Of a stretch of 64,000 nucleotides of DNA, positions 40,913 through 46,919 are shown in pieces. The position numbers and the translations under genes are program-made. Within the stretch, counting starts at the first letter, position 1. Each line of letters starts with the position of its first letter. The notes beneath the pieces are model-generated. The model made no database searches. It saw only the letters and a list, made by a program, of their open reading frames with translations, and was not told the origin of the DNA. The stretch is taken from the NCBI GenBank assembly GCA_030428945.1, contig JAUIEC010000002.1:372001-436000 (forward strand). The letters run 5' to 3'. Origin of the DNA: Phycisphaerae bacterium. Its GTDB lineage: Bacteria; Planctomycetota; Phycisphaerae; UBA1845; Fen-1342.

Positions 40913-42541
40913 TTACGCCAGGTGCCACTGCCGACACCCCCCACAGACCGGCAGAGAGCCCGTTCGCCCGTCCTGGTGCGCCTCCCGCAGGGCCCCGCGA
41001 GCATCACCCCGCCAGATCGCCGTCAGCGTCTCAGAATCCCAGCGCCCCAGCTCCTGGCGACCACGCGGATCCTCGCTGCACGCCACCGCTCGCCCGTCCG
41101 CGAGCAGCGTCAGCCGCGACGCCAGCCGTCGGCAGGCCGCCCGGATCGGCGGTGTCGTGCCCGGCAGCGCGTCCGGGGCCAGCGTGCCGTCCAGCGTCCC
41201 GTAGCCCCGCAGAACCGCCCAGCCCACCGTCGCGATCCAGCGGTCGAAGAATCCCTCGATCTCGTCGAAGGTTGCCGCACAGCGCGTCATGCTGCACGTC
41301 AGGATCGGCTGCGGGCTCTGCCGGATCTGCCGGTTCCGGTGCAGCGTGTCGAGATGCGCCAGCACCTGCTCAAACCGGTCCGCCCCGTGCACCCGTCGAT
41401 ACGTCTCCGCCGTGTTCGCGTCAAGCTGAACCTCGACCACGTCCAGCGGAGCCCCGAAGATCGCCTCCAGTTGCGGCGGCGTCAGGTCCACCAGCGGCGT
41501 CGCCAGCCCCAGCCCGAACACACCCGCCGCCCGCAAGGCCGTGCAGATCTCACCGAACGCCGGGTGCGCCAGCGGATCGCCATGACCGCCCAGCCACACC
41601 AGCCGGTCATCACACGCCCCCAGTTCACCCGCGAGCGCGTCGAGCGATCCCGCGTCCGCGATCATTCGCGTCGGAATCCGCGCACCCCGCGCCCGCAGCG
41701 TGCTCTCCGGCAGCGGGTCGCCCGTGGTCAGTTCCAGTTCGACCTCGACCGGCAGCGCCGCCGCCCGCAGCGGATGCGCCCGCGCCCAGCCCGCCAGCGC
41801 CATCGCATCCGCTTCATCGCCCACGGCCGCGAGCGCTCCGGACAGCCGCGCGCAACTGATGTCCGTGTCGGCCACGAACCGGGCCTGCGTCTGGATCACG
41901 GTGCTGTCGATCCGCCGGCACATCGGCTTGGTGATCAGGTCCATCCGCGGTGCCTCGGGGCGATAGGCCAGCACGATCCCGAACGGCGCCTGCGATTCGA
42001 TCAGGCTCGCCGCCATCTTCCGCGTCAGCACCGGCCCCGACAGACCCGGCGGCGCCTGGTCGAAGATGAACTCGGCCTCGGCCGACCGCTCGCGCTGCGT
42101 CTCGATCACGCCATTGCCCAGGACCGGATCGAACCCCGGCTGGTGACCCTCGATGCACAGGACCGCATCGGCCCGGGTCGCGTCGAGCACGCGCCCGACC
42201 TCGAGCGGCTCCAGGAATTCATCGAACCAGGTCGCACCCAGCAGGCCGCCGCGCCACGCGTCCAGGCTCCATTTGCGCGCCGTCCGCATCAGCCGCCGCC
42301 GCGGCCGCTCCCCGCTGTCACAGGTCAGCAGTTGCACACCCGCGTGCCGGGCCACGGCCGCCGCGGCCGGTTCGGCATCACGCGGCGAAACCACCAGGAA
42401 GACCTCGTCGGCGGCGGTCACGCGCAACGCCGCCGCCAGCGTGCGGTCCAGAATCGGGCGTCCGTTCAGGTCCTCGAGCAGTCGGCTGCGCCCGAACGGG
42501 GCCTGCTCGAAATCAGCGAAGACGGCCAGGACCACTCTCAT
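40913..42541 (-). CDS. SpsF-like nucleotidyltransferase fused to degenerate radical-SAM/SPASM domain
   Basis: A 542-residue fusion. Residues 1 to about 240 resemble the CMP/sugar nucleotidyltransferases of the SpsF/NeuA group (FGRSRLLEDLNGRPILDRTL). From about residue 275 the outline of a radical-SAM enzyme follows: an entry strand VEVELELTTGD, then GGHGDPLAHPAF (family GGEPLLHP), LDVVEVQLDANTAETYRRVHG, and a short SPASM-like tail with ACSEDPRGRQELGRW and CGGCRQW. The CxxxCxxC that would hold the 4Fe-4S cluster is absent: the stretch after TTGD has no Cys. It is probably a catalytically altered radical-SAM partner. Its ATG overlaps the MAF gene stop by four bases. Confidence 0.8.
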   Translation of the reverse strand: MRVVLAVFADFEQAPFGRSRLLEDLNGRPILDRTLAAALRVTAADEVFLVVSPRDAEPAAAAVARHAGVQLLTCDSGERPRRRLMRTARKWSLDAWRGGLLGATWFDEFLEPLEVGRVLDATRADAVLCIEGHQPGFDPVLGNGVIETQRERSAEAEFIFDQAPPGLSGPVLTRKMAASLIESQAPFGIVLAYRPEAPRMDLITKPMCRRIDSTVIQTQARFVADTDISCARLSGALAAVGDEADAMALAGWARAHPLRAAALPVEVELELTTGDPLPESTLRARGARIPTRMIADAGSLDALAGELGACDDRLVWLGGHGDPLAHPAFGEICTALRAAGVFGLGLATPLVDLTPPQLEAIFGAPLDVVEVQLDANTAETYRRVHGADRFEQVLAHLDTLHRNRQIRQSPQPILTCSMTRCAATFDEIEGFFDRWIATVGWAVLRGYGTLDGTLAPDALPGTTPPIRAACRRLASRLTLLADGRAVACSEDPRGRQELGRWDSETLTAIWRGDARGALREAHQDGRTGSLPVCGGCRQWHLA

Positions 42542-44454
42542 CGGCTGCGCTCCTCCAGTCGCCGCAGCGCTTCCGGCAGAACCTCGCGCAGGAAGGCGCA
42601 GCCGGCCACGAACTCGGCGACGAACTCCCGGTCGCGCTTCAGCCGCTGCCGGGCGGTCGCGGATGTCTCCCGCTGCACCGTCCCGAGTTGCCGGTCGGCA
42701 CTGTGCCGCCGCAGCTCGGCCGACGACGACACATCCACCACCAGCCGGTACATCGCGTCGTACTTCCGGATCAGCGTCCGCAGTTCGTCGACACGGACCA
42801 GGGCCCGGTTGAACGCGTCCGGCCGATCGAGCAGATCGGCGAGCCTGGCCAGCAGATCGCGCATCTCGCTGGCGATCTCGTGCAGCGCGTCCAGTTCGGC
42901 AATGCGGGTCCGCAGCGCCCGCGCCGCCGCCGCCCGGCGATCCGCCGACAGCGGCGGATTCGGCACCGTCAGCAGGTCAGCGGGCAGCGGCGTGCGGCAG
43001 AACGCGGCCGCGGCATCGGCCAGGGTCATTGGCGTGGTGTGGTCGAGTCGCAGTCCGCCCTCGGTCGCCTGGATCACCCGCGCCGGGCAGTTGCCGAAGT
43101 CGCCGACAAACTGCTCGGCATAGGTGAACAGCAGGTCGTCGGTGTAGATCGGGCGGTCATTGACGTCGCGGGTCGCCCGCAGGATCGGCCGGTTCCGGAC
43201 GATGCGGTCCCACTGTTTCATCTCGATCGTCTGGAAGCGGTTCATCTCGGGCGACCAGATCGCCTCGACCGGGCTGCCGGGCAGGTAGAACAGCCCGTCG
43301 CTGTAGGCCAGGTCCTGCCCGATCAGGATGATCGGGTCGCAGCCGAGGTGTTCGGCCACGTAGAACGCCAGGTGCGCGACCGTCGTGCCCGGCCGCAGTT
43401 CTCCGTGTCGCGGAACGCTGTCGCCCAGCAGCGTTTCGTAGTTGCGGTGATGCAGCACGAAGGTCTCGCCGGGATAGTTGTCAAGCACGTGCCAGGTCGC
43501 CTTCGGCTCGGCCACCAGGCGGCAGCGATCGACGTCGTCGATTCCCTCGTAGAACGTCGCGGAGATTTCGTGGTAGTCCAGGCAGGTGACAAAGTGCGGG
43601 CGAATCCCGAGCGTCCGCAGCAGGCGCAGAACCGTCTGCACGCAGATGATCACCGCCTTGTCCTGCAGTTCCCGCAGCAGGTCCAGGTGCCGCGCCAGCG
43701 ACGGGCCCGCAGCCACGACGATGGCCGGGCGGCCTTTTCCGCGCCCGGCGAGGCTCTCGACCCCGGGCTGGTCCAGGTAGGCGGCCAGGTTGTAGGCGAC
43801 GTTCTGCACGGTGACCCGCGAGGTGCGCAGCAGGGTGACCATCTGCGTGCGGGCGGTCGCGGCGAAGTCGGCCAGCGCGGCCCGCATCGTCTCCTGGAAC
43901 TGCACGTGGAAGCGGCGTCCGAGCGGCGGATGGACGAAGTGCAGGCCGAGCAGCACGTCGGCGTTGGCCCGCATCAGTTTCTCGTTGAGCGTGGTCCGAT
44001 CGGTGTTCCAGATCAGGATCAGTCGCCCGGCTCGCAGCGGACCGGACAGATCATGCAGGCAGAGTGCGGTCTTCAGCAGGGGCAGATCATCTTCGAGGAT
44101 CACGAGCAGGGGGGTGTCGAACCGCTCTTCGATCGCTTCGGCGACGTACCCGAGTCCGAGTCCGGCCAGGACGAAGTTGGGGTGCTCCGGTGCCTGCAGA
44201 TCGGCGACGAATCGTCGGGCTTCCTCGCGTGGCCGGTAGCGGCTGTGGGCGTAAAGGGTCTTTCCGTCGTCCGCGGTGAGTTGCAGAGTGAATTCGCCGG
44301 CGGAGCGGGCGGGCTGAAGCGTGGGCAGGTTCGCGAACGGGAGTTGTTCGAGGGTCCGTGCGAGTGCGGGGTCGCGCAGGTGCAGCGCGGCGAGGTTGCG
44401 GCCCCAGGTTCTGCGGGCGGATTCGAGTTGGGCTGGCCGGTCGGGGCGGTTCAT
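42538..44454 (-). CDS. MAF/DUF115 flagellin- or surface-glycan-type glycosyltransferase
   Basis: A 638-residue protein of the motility accessory factor family (DUF115), which in other bacteria transfers nonulosonic acids to flagellin or related proteins. Seen: ENLPxL-like N-terminal region, AIVVAAGPSLARHLDLL, the central domain with HFVTCLDYHEISATFY and VAHLAFYVAEHLGCDPIILIGQDLAYSDG, and a helical C-terminus. It is cotranscribed with the downstream nucleotidyltransferase fusion (ATGA overlap), which could supply the activated sugar. No flagellin gene is in the window. Confidence 0.9.
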   Translation of the reverse strand: MNRPDRPAQLESARRTWGRNLAALHLRDPALARTLEQLPFANLPTLQPARSAGEFTLQLTADDGKTLYAHSRYRPREEARRFVADLQAPEHPNFVLAGLGLGYVAEAIEERFDTPLLVILEDDLPLLKTALCLHDLSGPLRAGRLILIWNTDRTTLNEKLMRANADVLLGLHFVHPPLGRRFHVQFQETMRAALADFAATARTQMVTLLRTSRVTVQNVAYNLAAYLDQPGVESLAGRGKGRPAIVVAAGPSLARHLDLLRELQDKAVIICVQTVLRLLRTLGIRPHFVTCLDYHEISATFYEGIDDVDRCRLVAEPKATWHVLDNYPGETFVLHHRNYETLLGDSVPRHGELRPGTTVAHLAFYVAEHLGCDPIILIGQDLAYSDGLFYLPGSPVEAIWSPEMNRFQTIEMKQWDRIVRNRPILRATRDVNDRPIYTDDLLFTYAEQFVGDFGNCPARVIQATEGGLRLDHTTPMTLADAAAAFCRTPLPADLLTVPNPPLSADRRAAAARALRTRIAELDALHEIASEMRDLLARLADLLDRPDAFNRALVRVDELRTLIRKYDAMYRLVVDVSSSAELRRHSADRQLGTVQRETSATARQRLKRDREFVAEFVAGCAFLREVLPEALRRLEERSR

Positions 44455-44700: not shown

Positions 44701-45219
44701 GTGGTAACGCAAGAGAACAGGTCGGAGCTGGCGGGTCGGGCGATCTGCATTCTTGGTCCGGGCGGATCCTATTGCGACGAGGTTCACGAGAACGAGGGTG
44801 GCCTGTTTGGTCGTCGGCGTTTGAGTGAAGCGGAGATTACGGGCCTGGCGGTTCGGCTGGGTGCGGTGGCCTGTGAGATGTCACCGGGCAGGGCGGAGTC
44901 GCGGGTCTGGCGGGCGGCGGCTCGAACGGTGGCGGACATGCCGCCGGTGATCTTTGGCTCGCTGAGTGCGTATCTGGCAGAGGAGTGGACGGATGACGGA
45001 CGCGAAGAAATCGCAGCGGGCCTCGCTGACGCCGAAACAGTTGCGGATCTTGACGTTCGTGCGGGACTTCTCGAAGGCGCGCGGGTACGCGCCGACGATG
45101 CAGGAACTGGCCGACGAGTTCCGCGTCAGCAAGGTGACCGTGTTCGAGCACATCGCGGCGCTGGAGAGGAAAGGGTTCCTGAAGCGGTCGCGACACAAGG
45201 CACGCTCTTTGCAACTTAG
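44701..45219 (+). CDS. Hypothetical protein ahead of lexA, uncertain 3' end
   Basis: GTG at 44701 has an excellent ribosome site (AAAGGAG, six bases) and a good promoter. The first 95 codons are protein-like: ICILGPGGSYCDEV, SEAEITGLAVRLGAVACEM and MPPVIFGSLSAYLAEEW. Beyond codon 98 the frame overlaps lexA by more than 220 bases and becomes Arg-rich and unlike a protein. The true end may be near the lexA start after a lost stop codon, or the overlap may be real. I do not recognise a family. The lexA ATG lies inside it, so coupled expression is likely. Confidence 0.5.
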   Translation: MVTQENRSELAGRAICILGPGGSYCDEVHENEGGLFGRRRLSEAEITGLAVRLGAVACEMSPGRAESRVWRAAARTVADMPPVIFGSLSAYLAEEWTDDGREEIAAGLADAETVADLDVRAGLLEGARVRADDAGTGRRVPRQQGDRVRAHRGAGEERVPEAVATQGTLFAT

Positions 45220-45619
45220 CGACAACATCGCGTTTCCCGACGAGCGGGCGACGCGACTTCCCCTGGCCGGCACGGTCGCGGCCGGTCTGCCGATCGAGGC
45301 CATCGAGGAGGACGAGTTCCTCGACCTTGAAGAGGCTTTCGTTTCGCCCCACGGCAGTTTCGTGTTGCGGGTCAAGGGCGACAGCATGCTCGGCGACCAG
45401 ATCTGCGACGGCGACTACGTGATTGTCGAGCGGCGCACGGCCGTTCGTGACGGCGAGATGGTCGTGGCCCTGATCGAGGGTGAGGAGGCGACCCTCAAGC
45501 GCCTGTACCGCACCCGCGACGGCGTCCGCCTGGAAGCCTCGAACCCCGCGTACGAACCGATCTTCGCCCAGGACGTCGCCGTTCAGGGCGTCGTCACCGG
45601 CGTACTTCGCCGCTACTGA
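44993..45619 (+). CDS. lexA: LexA repressor
   Basis: Self-cleaving repressor of the SOS regulon. The 208-residue protein has an N-terminal winged helix-turn-helix (LTPKQLRILTFVRDFSKARG, APTMQELADEF, VSKVTVFEHIAALERKGF) and the S24 peptidase half. Cleavage is expected at Ala97-Gly98 in LPLAGTVAAG. The catalytic pair is Ser131 (KGDSM) and Lys169 (ATLKRL). ATG 44993 follows AGAGGAG by seven bases. The recognition helix is of the Gram-positive-like length, so its DNA site may not be the enteric SOS box. It is likely expressed with the preceding small gene. Confidence 0.95.
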   Translation: MTDAKKSQRASLTPKQLRILTFVRDFSKARGYAPTMQELADEFRVSKVTVFEHIAALERKGFLKRSRHKARSLQLSDNIAFPDERATRLPLAGTVAAGLPIEAIEEDEFLDLEEAFVSPHGSFVLRVKGDSMLGDQICDGDYVIVERRTAVRDGEMVVALIEGEEATLKRLYRTRDGVRLEASNPAYEPIFAQDVAVQGVVTGVLRRY

Positions 45620-45680: not shown

Positions 45681-45984
45681 AGGAATCAACGTCGACCGCC
45701 CGGAACCCAGCCCGGGAACAGCTTCGACGAGGCGCGTTCAGGCATCCCCGATCCGCATCCCCGATCGGCGTTCCCGGTCGCCGGTCCGCGGTCTTGGTGC
45801 CTGGTCCGCGGTCCTTGGTCCCTGGGTGCCCTGTCGTCGCCCGCTCCCTCTTCCCCGTCACCCCGGTCCCGTTCCCGCTCTCTGGCTCCCTCGATCTGTT
45901 CCGCGTCCCCCGACTCGCTCCCTCGCTCCCGAGCTCCCTCGCTCCCTGTTCCCTGTTCCCTGTTCCCCGTTCCCTTCCCCAACT

Positions 45985-46058
45985 GCGGTGCGGCATCGAC
46001 GGGCGTGGCTTCCACGACCGATTCGGCCGCGGTCGGCCGCGTCGATGACGCACCCTAC
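45985..46058. repeat. Dispersed 74-bp palindromic element, copy 3
   Basis: Inside the first satellite unit: GCGGTGCGGCATCGACGG at the left and GCGTCGATGACGCACCCTAC at the right. Confidence 0.8.
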
Positions 46059-46347
46059 AACGCTCCCCGCTCATCCCGGGAACAGCTTCGACGAGCCGCG
46101 TTCGGGCATCCCCGATCGGCATCCCCGATCGGCGTCCCCGGTCCGCGTCCCCGGTCCTTGGTTCCCGGTCCGCGGTCCTTGGTGCCTGGGTGCCCTGTCG
46201 TCGCCCGCTCCCTCGTCCCCGTCACCCCAGTCCCGTTCCCGCTCCCTGGCTCCCTCGACCTGTGCCGCGTCCCCCGACTCGCTCCCTCGCTCCCTCACTC
46301 CCTCGCTCCCTGAACCTGTTCCCTGTTCCCTGTTCCCTTCCCCACCT

Positions 46348-46421
46348 GCGGTGCGGCATCGACGCGCGTGGCTTCAACGAGCGATTTGGCCGCGGTCGGC
46401 CGCGTCGATGACGCACCCTAC
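46348..46421. repeat. Dispersed 74-bp palindromic element, copy 4
   Basis: Inside the second satellite unit, nearly identical to copy 3, differing mainly in the centre. Confidence 0.8.
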
Positions 46422-46919
46422 AACGCTCCCCGCTCATCCCGGGAACAGCTTCGACGAGGCGCGTTCGGGCATCCCCGATCGGCATCCCCGATCGGCGTCC
46501 CCGGTCCGCGTCCCCGGTCCGCGGTCCGCGGTCCTTGGTTCCGGTCCGCAGTCCTTGGTGCCTGGGTGCCCTGTCGTCGCCCGCTCCCTCGTCCCCGTCA
46601 CCCCGGTCCCGTTCCCGCTCCCTGGCTCCCTCGACCTGTGCCGCGTCCCCCGACTCGCTCCCTCGCTCCCTCGCTCCCTCACTCCCTCGCTCCCTGAACC
46701 TGTTCCCTGTTCCCTTCCCCAAATTCGGCGCCGCTGGTCCGAAGGCATGCGCCGACCTGCCACATCGTCTTCATGCGCCTGCGGTCCGAACGAGGGCCTG
46801 TCACGCCGGACCCCGCCTCACGGTGCCCGAAAAACGAAAACTGAAATCGGACCACTCTGCCGGCTTCCGCCGATCCGCTATTCTGACCAGGGCCGACGGC
46901 TATCAAGGAGGAGCGAGCG

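Follow-up and report, generated by a model that had tools for sequence, protein, structure and literature searches.

A stretch of 64,000 nucleotides from a Phycisphaerae bacterium (GenBank assembly GCA_030428945.1, contig JAUIEC010000002.1, positions 372,001 to 436,000), referred to as the window herein, encodes a protein that joins a nucleotidyltransferase-like part to a radical-SAM-like part without its cluster cysteines, next to a MAF-type glycosyltransferase. We asked whether the radical-SAM part has lost or changed its function, and what role such a protein could have beside a glycosyltransferase.

Domain layout of the 542-residue protein

The open reading frame is exactly as originally described, with an ATG start and a product of 542 residues. 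Its features are as follows.

40913..42541 (-): coding sequence, 542 aa, ATG start; degenerate cytidylyltransferase, cysteine-less radical-SAM and SPASM/twitch parts
41819..42541 (-): residues 1–241, N-terminal cytidylyltransferase (SpsF/KdsB/NeuA-like) fold, catalytic signature lost
42458..42520 (-): residues 8–28, site of the CTP-binding/catalytic loop, motif absent
42218..42277 (-): residues 89–108, new conserved motif R(K)W...WRGGLxGxTWFDE
41135..41758 (-): residues 262–469, radical-SAM (partial TIM barrel) domain
41684..41746 (-): residues 266–286, EVELELTTGDPLPESTLRARG, in place of the CxxxCxxC strand and loop
41561..41587 (-): residues 319–327, GGHGDPLAH.P region, former GGE (SAM-binding) motif
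40934..41134 (-): residues 470–536, SPASM/twitch domain with C470, C488, C533 and C536

Against Pfam, the protein gave a truncated Radical_SAM match at residues 319–403 (29.4 bits; gathering score 29.5), a SPASM match at residues 470–536 (22.6 bits versus 21.5) and a weak match at residues 16–75 to NTP_transf_3, a MobA/IspD-like nucleotidyltransferase model. The SPASM region also matched BtrN by sequence (E 1.6e-6). The GGxGDPLxHP loop (residues 319–327), the QLDANTAETY strand and the SPASM tail, all three of which had been recognised in the original prediction, are conserved among relatives. With the single 542-residue sequence as query, a PDB search and a tblastn search of plasmids each returned chance or ordinary radical-SAM matches only, and a contig search returned two loci only, hence whole genomes were searched.

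The SAM-cluster cysteines are absent throughout the family

An alignment was made of 100 distinct family members and 21 close proteins whose similarity is limited to the C-terminal half, namely 20 proteins of the phylum (L108–L127) and L003 of the window's own genome. The three cluster-cysteine columns hold no cysteine in any row of the family (gaps in 4, 10 and 11 of the 100 rows), whereas CxxxCxxC was present in all 21 free-standing homologues, mostly as IExTNxCNLxCxxCPR; as the 20 phylum homologues were picked among strong C-terminal-only matches, the figure of 21/21 describes that choice and not all radical-SAM proteins. The entry strand VEVELELTTGD, from which the motif had been predicted to be missing, aligns with the CNLxCxxC-bearing strand of real radical-SAM proteins and takes the form LPxEVELELTTxDPLPETTLRPRG, or variants of it, in the family. 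An alignment of homologues had been proposed as the check on this point, and it places the loss of the motif in the whole clade. The 100 do not include L141–L144 and L160, which likewise lack CxxxCxxC; L160 has one cysteine in the stretch. L001, L003, L005 and L035 had been removed earlier, each being a duplicate or, in one case, not a member.

Two further positions set the family apart from its homologues. The TNG asparagine was found in 20 of the 21 homologues versus 9 of the 100 family members, and the GGE glutamate, present in 19 of the homologues, is Asp in 73 and Glu in 23 of the family. Unlike radical SAM/SPASM enzymes, the family thus combines the lack of CxxxCxxC with a TNG asparagine that is mostly lost and a GGE motif that has mostly become GGxGD. 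Judged by the absence of CxxxCxxC, the 542-residue protein and its family would not class as catalytic radical-SAM enzymes.

We considered whether radical-SAM chemistry could be kept through unusual ligands, such as Asp or Glu, or cysteines supplied from elsewhere or by a partner. L063 would suit this idea, being the only member with three cysteines close together in the loop (C-x5-C-x2-C), as would L165 and L166, which have a related N-terminal region and keep CxxxCxxC. However, the C-x5-C-x2-C of L063 is absent from its closest relatives, and the SPASM cysteines are gone from L063 too. The loop that replaces CxxxCxxC varies in length among family members, and the segment between strand 1 and the GGxGD strand holds no cysteine in 70 of the 100, one in 25, two in three and three in two. 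The TNG position, moreover, is other than Asn in 91/100. We regard retained radical chemistry as barely credible.

Distribution, selection and phylogeny

We searched the genomes of 61 relatives, almost all from the same family or order, and detected the 542-residue gene in 58 of them, including 39/39 of good quality. dN/dS was 0.11–0.22 in six pairs, and the gene is under purifying selection. Since the gene recurs in these relatives and is under purifying selection, the cysteine-less pattern is neither chance nor sequencing error; a frameshift or sequencing artefact was rejected on the same figures.

Across the phylum, the profile of alignment A1 (31 rows) matched 246 of 392 genomes at E<=0.001, mostly through other radical-SAM proteins, and the search table gave 45 genomes with matches that include the N-terminal domain. 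We read these 45 genomes, and whether each has flagellin and MAF, from the search tables by eye; in most genomes scoring was limited to the three best candidates, so that members can be missed.

When the cysteine columns were excluded from tree building, a branch with an SH-aLRT value of 99 separated the 100 family members from the other sequences. A careful tree of 57 rows, likewise without the cysteine columns, gave the pseudo clade a support of 100/94. On these sequence trees the loss of the cluster cysteines is shown to be clade-wide, with one origin. The first of these trees requires three changes to account for fusion to MAF; a single group of the class contains 13 of the fused rows, together with the unfused L052, and the fused L101 stands apart.

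L165 (1932–3536) and L166 (1941–3530) combine a family-related N-terminal region with an intact CxxxCxxC and a SPASM-type tail. The N-terminal relationship was recovered by hhalign with a probability of 88% (E 2.9e-6, 63 columns), versus 0.15% for a reversed control, and full-length copies of this type occur in 2 of the 392 genomes. Both are placed next to the pseudo clade with weak support (76/90); they may show the state before the cysteines were lost, and represent a possible active counterpart. L166 adjoins FliN-type and FliL genes, and L165 adjoins a Capsule_synth gene. A separate protein, L123 (565 aa), has intact radical-SAM/SPASM parts and a different N-terminal extension, and lies, weakly, near the active fusions on the tree.

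Both halves are predicted to keep their folds

Structure prediction for the 542-residue protein (AlphaFold2 on A1) gave a model with a pLDDT of 92.4 and a pTM of 0.91. Residues 1–263 matched 6oew (Z 22.8, rmsd 3.0, 220 aligned), and CMP-KDO synthetase structures matched the N-terminal model at Z of about 16–18. For residues 259–542 the top match was BtrN (Z 22.4, rmsd 2.8, 233 aligned), followed by SuiB (Z 22.1), DesII, SkfB and anSME; in prediction, the C-terminal half shares its fold with the radical SAM/SPASM enzymes BtrN, SuiB, SkfB, anSMEcpe and PqqE. This was the structural check set beforehand, and the predicted fold is of the radical-SAM type. The candidate of a non-radical-SAM fold was rejected on the BtrN match.

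A homologue fused to MAF, L136 (1189 aa, from the same genome as L057), was modelled with a pLDDT of 81.2 and a pTM of 0.66. Its residues 5–642 matched the Maf structure 5mu5 (Z 24.1, 537 aligned), residues 653–919 matched 6oew (Z 19.0) and the last part matched SuiB (Z 19.4). A low-confidence linker (635–651) lies between the MAF half and the pseudo half of this model. As the last part of L136 matches SuiB while L057 has neither the radical-SAM nor the SPASM cysteines, the fold is predicted to persist in a chain that lacks both sets. In the predicted models both enzyme folds are kept, while both catalytic signatures are lost from the sequences. That the radical-SAM part has lost or changed its function, as was first proposed, fits a clade in which the cluster cysteines are gone and the fold is retained.

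The N-terminal half is probably a pseudo-synthetase

A profile from a 23-row phylum-wide alignment of the N-terminal domain matched 6oew at E 1.5e-8, with CMP-KDO synthetase next. The domain thus resembles the CMP-sugar synthetases (6oew, KdsB, NeuA, PseF; PF02348) in fold and profile; unlike them, the family lacks the R..S..xP.K loop. This signature, which is seen in 6oew and in the PseF-like enzyme of the window's own genome (RAGSKGLPGK), was found in 0 of 98 family members (L027 and L094 stand outside this count, their sequences being incomplete). The original prediction of a nucleotidyltransferase stands for the fold, which is fused to a radical-SAM/SPASM fold, and needs refining, as the signature is lost. 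Because the signature is missing from every one of the 98 members counted, we read the N-terminal half as probably a pseudo-synthetase. An ordinary active nucleotidyltransferase was rejected on the same count.

Other residues of this domain are strongly conserved. R89, W96, R97, D107, D138, P165, G166, R221 and D225, among others, do not vary in the 31 rows of A1; in the wider alignment A2, R89, P165, G166 and R221 remain invariant, and W96, R97 and E108 are kept in at least 90%. A stretch RLxxDT is also kept in the family and aligns with RLTIDT of 6oew. The conserved polar residues (R89, R97, D107, D138, R221) could mean an activity that has gone unrecognised. In that case, the domain would have been re-tooled, with a new site (R89, W96, R97, D107/E108, D138, R221, D225) for binding or converting a nucleotide sugar, and the role of the pseudo-radical-SAM half would be confined to supporting it. 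The conservation in A1 and A2 and the RLxxDT stretch favour such a site, as polar conservation seems to exceed the needs of a scaffold. Against it, the CTP-binding loop is absent in 98/98, the deep relatives L064 and L065 lack several of the proposed residues, and an intact PseF-like enzyme is already encoded next to NeuB in the window's own genome. We consider a re-tooled site unlikely, and retain the pseudo-synthetase reading.

The gene is coupled to a MAF glycosyltransferase

The neighbour and its junction with the 542-residue gene are as follows.

42538..44454 (-): upstream gene, MAF-type glycosyltransferase, 638 aa; PF01973 at 137 bits versus 34.6
42538..42541 (-): 4-nt overlap between the end of the MAF gene and the start codon of the 542-residue gene

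In keeping with known MAF flagellin glycosyltransferases (5mu5; PF01973), the window gene carries PF01973, and the predicted structure of the fused form, whose N-terminal half matches 5mu5, points to a Maf fold for this neighbour.

The coupling to MAF that was originally predicted recurs across the family. MAF lies directly upstream on the same strand in 72 of the 100 members, with a 4-nt overlap in 50 of these 72, and is fused to the protein in 14, so that 86/100 are adjacent or fused. For the other 14, the fetched flank contains no MAF; in two cases it is truncated by a contig end, leaving 12. MAF (PF01973) was found in 45/45 phylum genomes with the 542-residue gene versus 38/347 without it, and within the class of the window's genome in 28/28 versus 0/13 (Fisher p 2e-36 and 6e-11, respectively, which are descriptive only as relatedness is ignored). 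G064 was counted as lacking the gene in these statistics although its L160 is a member beside MAF. MAF does not need the 542-residue protein everywhere, since 38 genomes of the phylum contain MAF but no counted member.

Divergent from the MAF gene in the window is a gene for a LexA-like repressor at 44966–45619 (+) (LexA_DNA_bind 54 bits, Peptidase_S24 106 bits). A 364-bp tandem repeat at 45711–46722 (2.7 copies, 91% match, inner micro-repeats of 7–13 bp) sits between this gene and a zinc-ribbon gene.

SPASM cysteines are kept in unfused members and mostly gone in fused ones

C470, C488, C533 and C536 are invariant in the 31 sequences of A1, and all four are kept in 81 of 86 unfused members. 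Among the 14 members fused to MAF, 11 have none of the four, two have one, and one (L101) has all four. This pattern goes beyond the original prediction, as does the degeneration of the nucleotidyltransferase half. As four SPASM ligands are among the remaining cysteines, the 542-residue protein may still bind the auxiliary cluster, but not the SAM-cleaving one.

Such a cluster could in principle serve as an iron-sulphur redox sensor that reports redox or iron state and gates MAF. Its ligands are retained in nearly all unfused members despite the loss of the catalytic cluster, and in BtrN, the top structural match of the C-terminal half, the auxiliary cluster is located in this same SPASM domain. 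Structural clusters account for the conservation equally well, however. Moreover, at most one of the cysteines survives in 13 of the 14 fused members, yet the fused model keeps the fold with MAF in the same chain, and loss at fusion is not expected of a sensor. A sensing role is therefore improbable.

Flagella and the donor sugar

Flagellin was detected in 42 of the 45 phylum genomes with the 542-residue gene versus 183 of the 347 without it. Among the 61 relatives, 59 have Flagellin_N; the two that lack it, G006 and G057, also lack the 542-residue gene and are incomplete (87% and 72%, respectively), and G057 keeps FliF and FlhA. In G025, flagellin is present and the gene was not detected. Six genomes from family f14 of the same class have flagellin and neither MAF nor the 542-residue gene. 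Flagella therefore do not need the gene, and the tie goes to MAF first and to flagella through MAF. Of the two associations, that with flagellin is weaker than that with MAF, and the sampled genomes are related.

In family f15, G408, G424 and G436 have no flagellin, FliF, FlhA, MAF or 542-residue gene. G355 and G420 keep FlhA, have no detected flagellin, and encode a fused protein with a shortened MAF part: their open frames are 1071 and 835 aa and score 42.9 and 38.8 bits with PF01973, compared with about 108–125 bits in the four flagellated f15 genomes. The MAF-fused L096 and L102, from genomes without detected flagellin, have a MAF part shortened as if decaying.

The window's own genome has a NeuB gene (E 3e-77) that overlaps a gene for a PseF-like cytidylyltransferase (CTP_transf_3, 62.8 bits) at about 319.8–321.6 kb of the contig, some 92 kb from the MAF pair (about 412.9–416.5 kb); flagellin genes lie at 344.8–346.9 kb of the same contig. 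Given these separate NeuB and PseF-like genes, the genome can probably make CMP-nonulosonate without the pseudo-synthetase. Elsewhere in the genome (C13:32137–35439), a second NeuB lies beside a weak second MptE-like match, possibly as part of another nonulosonate locus.

The surface-glycan pathway that was first suggested can be narrowed to probable flagellin glycosylation. A partner role could be the same with MAF modifying a surface protein other than flagellin. In its own genome the gene lies at least about 66 kb from the flagellin genes, and G355, G420 and G315 have it without a detected flagellin. However, the first two of these keep FlhA and hold the shortened MAF part, flagellin accompanies the gene nearly everywhere else, and the known acceptors of the MAF family are flagellins (PMC11339370, which also covers the donors). 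A different acceptor is distinctly unlikely. Maf1 is reported to bind flagellin, which is glycosylated before it is bound by its chaperone and exported (PMC4065374).

A putative non-catalytic partner of MAF

We favour, with a probability of roughly 0.55, the reading that the 542-residue protein is a non-catalytic partner subunit of the MAF encoded just upstream, probably for flagellin glycosylation. The gene overlaps or fuses with MAF and is co-inherited with MAF and, largely, with flagellin. Mafs use CMP-nonulosonates, and SPASM enzymes bind polypeptides. MAF and the 542-residue protein would form one complex, in which the pseudo-radical-SAM/SPASM half would dock the acceptor, probably flagellin, while the pseudo-CMP-sugar-synthetase half would dock MAF and/or hold the CMP-nonulosonate donor. 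This donor would be supplied by the separate, intact NeuB-like and PseF-like enzymes, and MAF would then transfer the sugar before the acceptor is exported. Where the SPASM ligands are retained, the cluster would have a structural role; lineages with the protein as the C-terminal half of MAF would mostly have lost it. Because the linker of the L136 model is of low confidence and its pTM is 0.66, no docking surface is predicted for the MAF and pseudo halves.

Extended to the Planctomycetota, the proposal is more tentative and falls a little short of even odds. Flagellin glycosylation there would employ a three-part machine of MAF, pseudo-CMP-sugar synthetase and pseudo-radical-SAM protein, the dead enzymes having been recruited together as a module for handling donor and acceptor, with the radical cluster lost first and the SPASM cluster at fusion.

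Relation to known families and significance

The best named NCBIfam model for the 542-residue protein is TIGR04321, spiro-SPASM, which is spirochaetal by name (93 bits, E 1.7e-26); as the cut-off is 250, the protein would not be named spiro-SPASM. TIGR04321 matched each of the 31 A1 rows (best E 5.1e-41) and was the best or tied-best model for 7/7 deeper members scanned, again below the cut-off (80.6–158.2 bits in the six unfused ones and 41.5 in the fused L063). The match reaches from the C-terminal part into the N-terminal domain, covering positions 87–506 of the 510-position profile in the window protein; when the five full-length deeper members are included, it runs from 75–96 to 503–506. 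By sequence, the 542-residue protein is a divergent relative of the NCBI spiro-SPASM family. A second model, TIGR04347 (pseudo_SAM_Halo), is a recognised SPASM-family precedent named pseudo-SAM, and matched L038 weakly (29 bits; cut-off 525). We know of no cytidylyltransferase domain or MAF coupling in that family.

A parallel in proposed working comes from Caulobacter FlmG, a cytoplasmic O-glycosyltransferase that is reported to owe its specificity to a flagellin-binding domain (PMC7591256). The likeness is confined to this proposed working and implies no kinship with the 542-residue protein. FlmG is not known to consist of pseudoenzymes.

The accessible parts of the two Maf accounts (PMC11339370, PMC4065374) describe no partner like the 542-residue protein. 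A literature search found no paper on spiro-SPASM or TIGR04321, and searches on Maf with SPASM, on spirochaete or planctomycete flagellin glycosylation and on radical-SAM pseudoenzymes, judged by title and the start of the abstract, found no description of the protein. As NCBIfam holds the spiro-SPASM and pseudo-SAM/SPASM models, the kind of protein is already known; we found no published account of cysteine loss across a clade of planctomycetes, of degeneration in both halves, or of a coupling to MAF or fusion with it.

These results describe a phylum-wide radical-SAM/SPASM clade that has dropped its defining chemistry and kept its fold, alongside a pseudo-cytidylyltransferase and a glycosyltransferase. 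Annotation calls for caution, as a planctomycete protein labelled "radical SAM/SPASM", and perhaps a spirochaete protein labelled "spiro-SPASM", is not necessarily a radical enzyme. The family offers a testable case of the SPASM fold as a binding module, and suggests that the MAF enzymes of some bacteria act with a partner.
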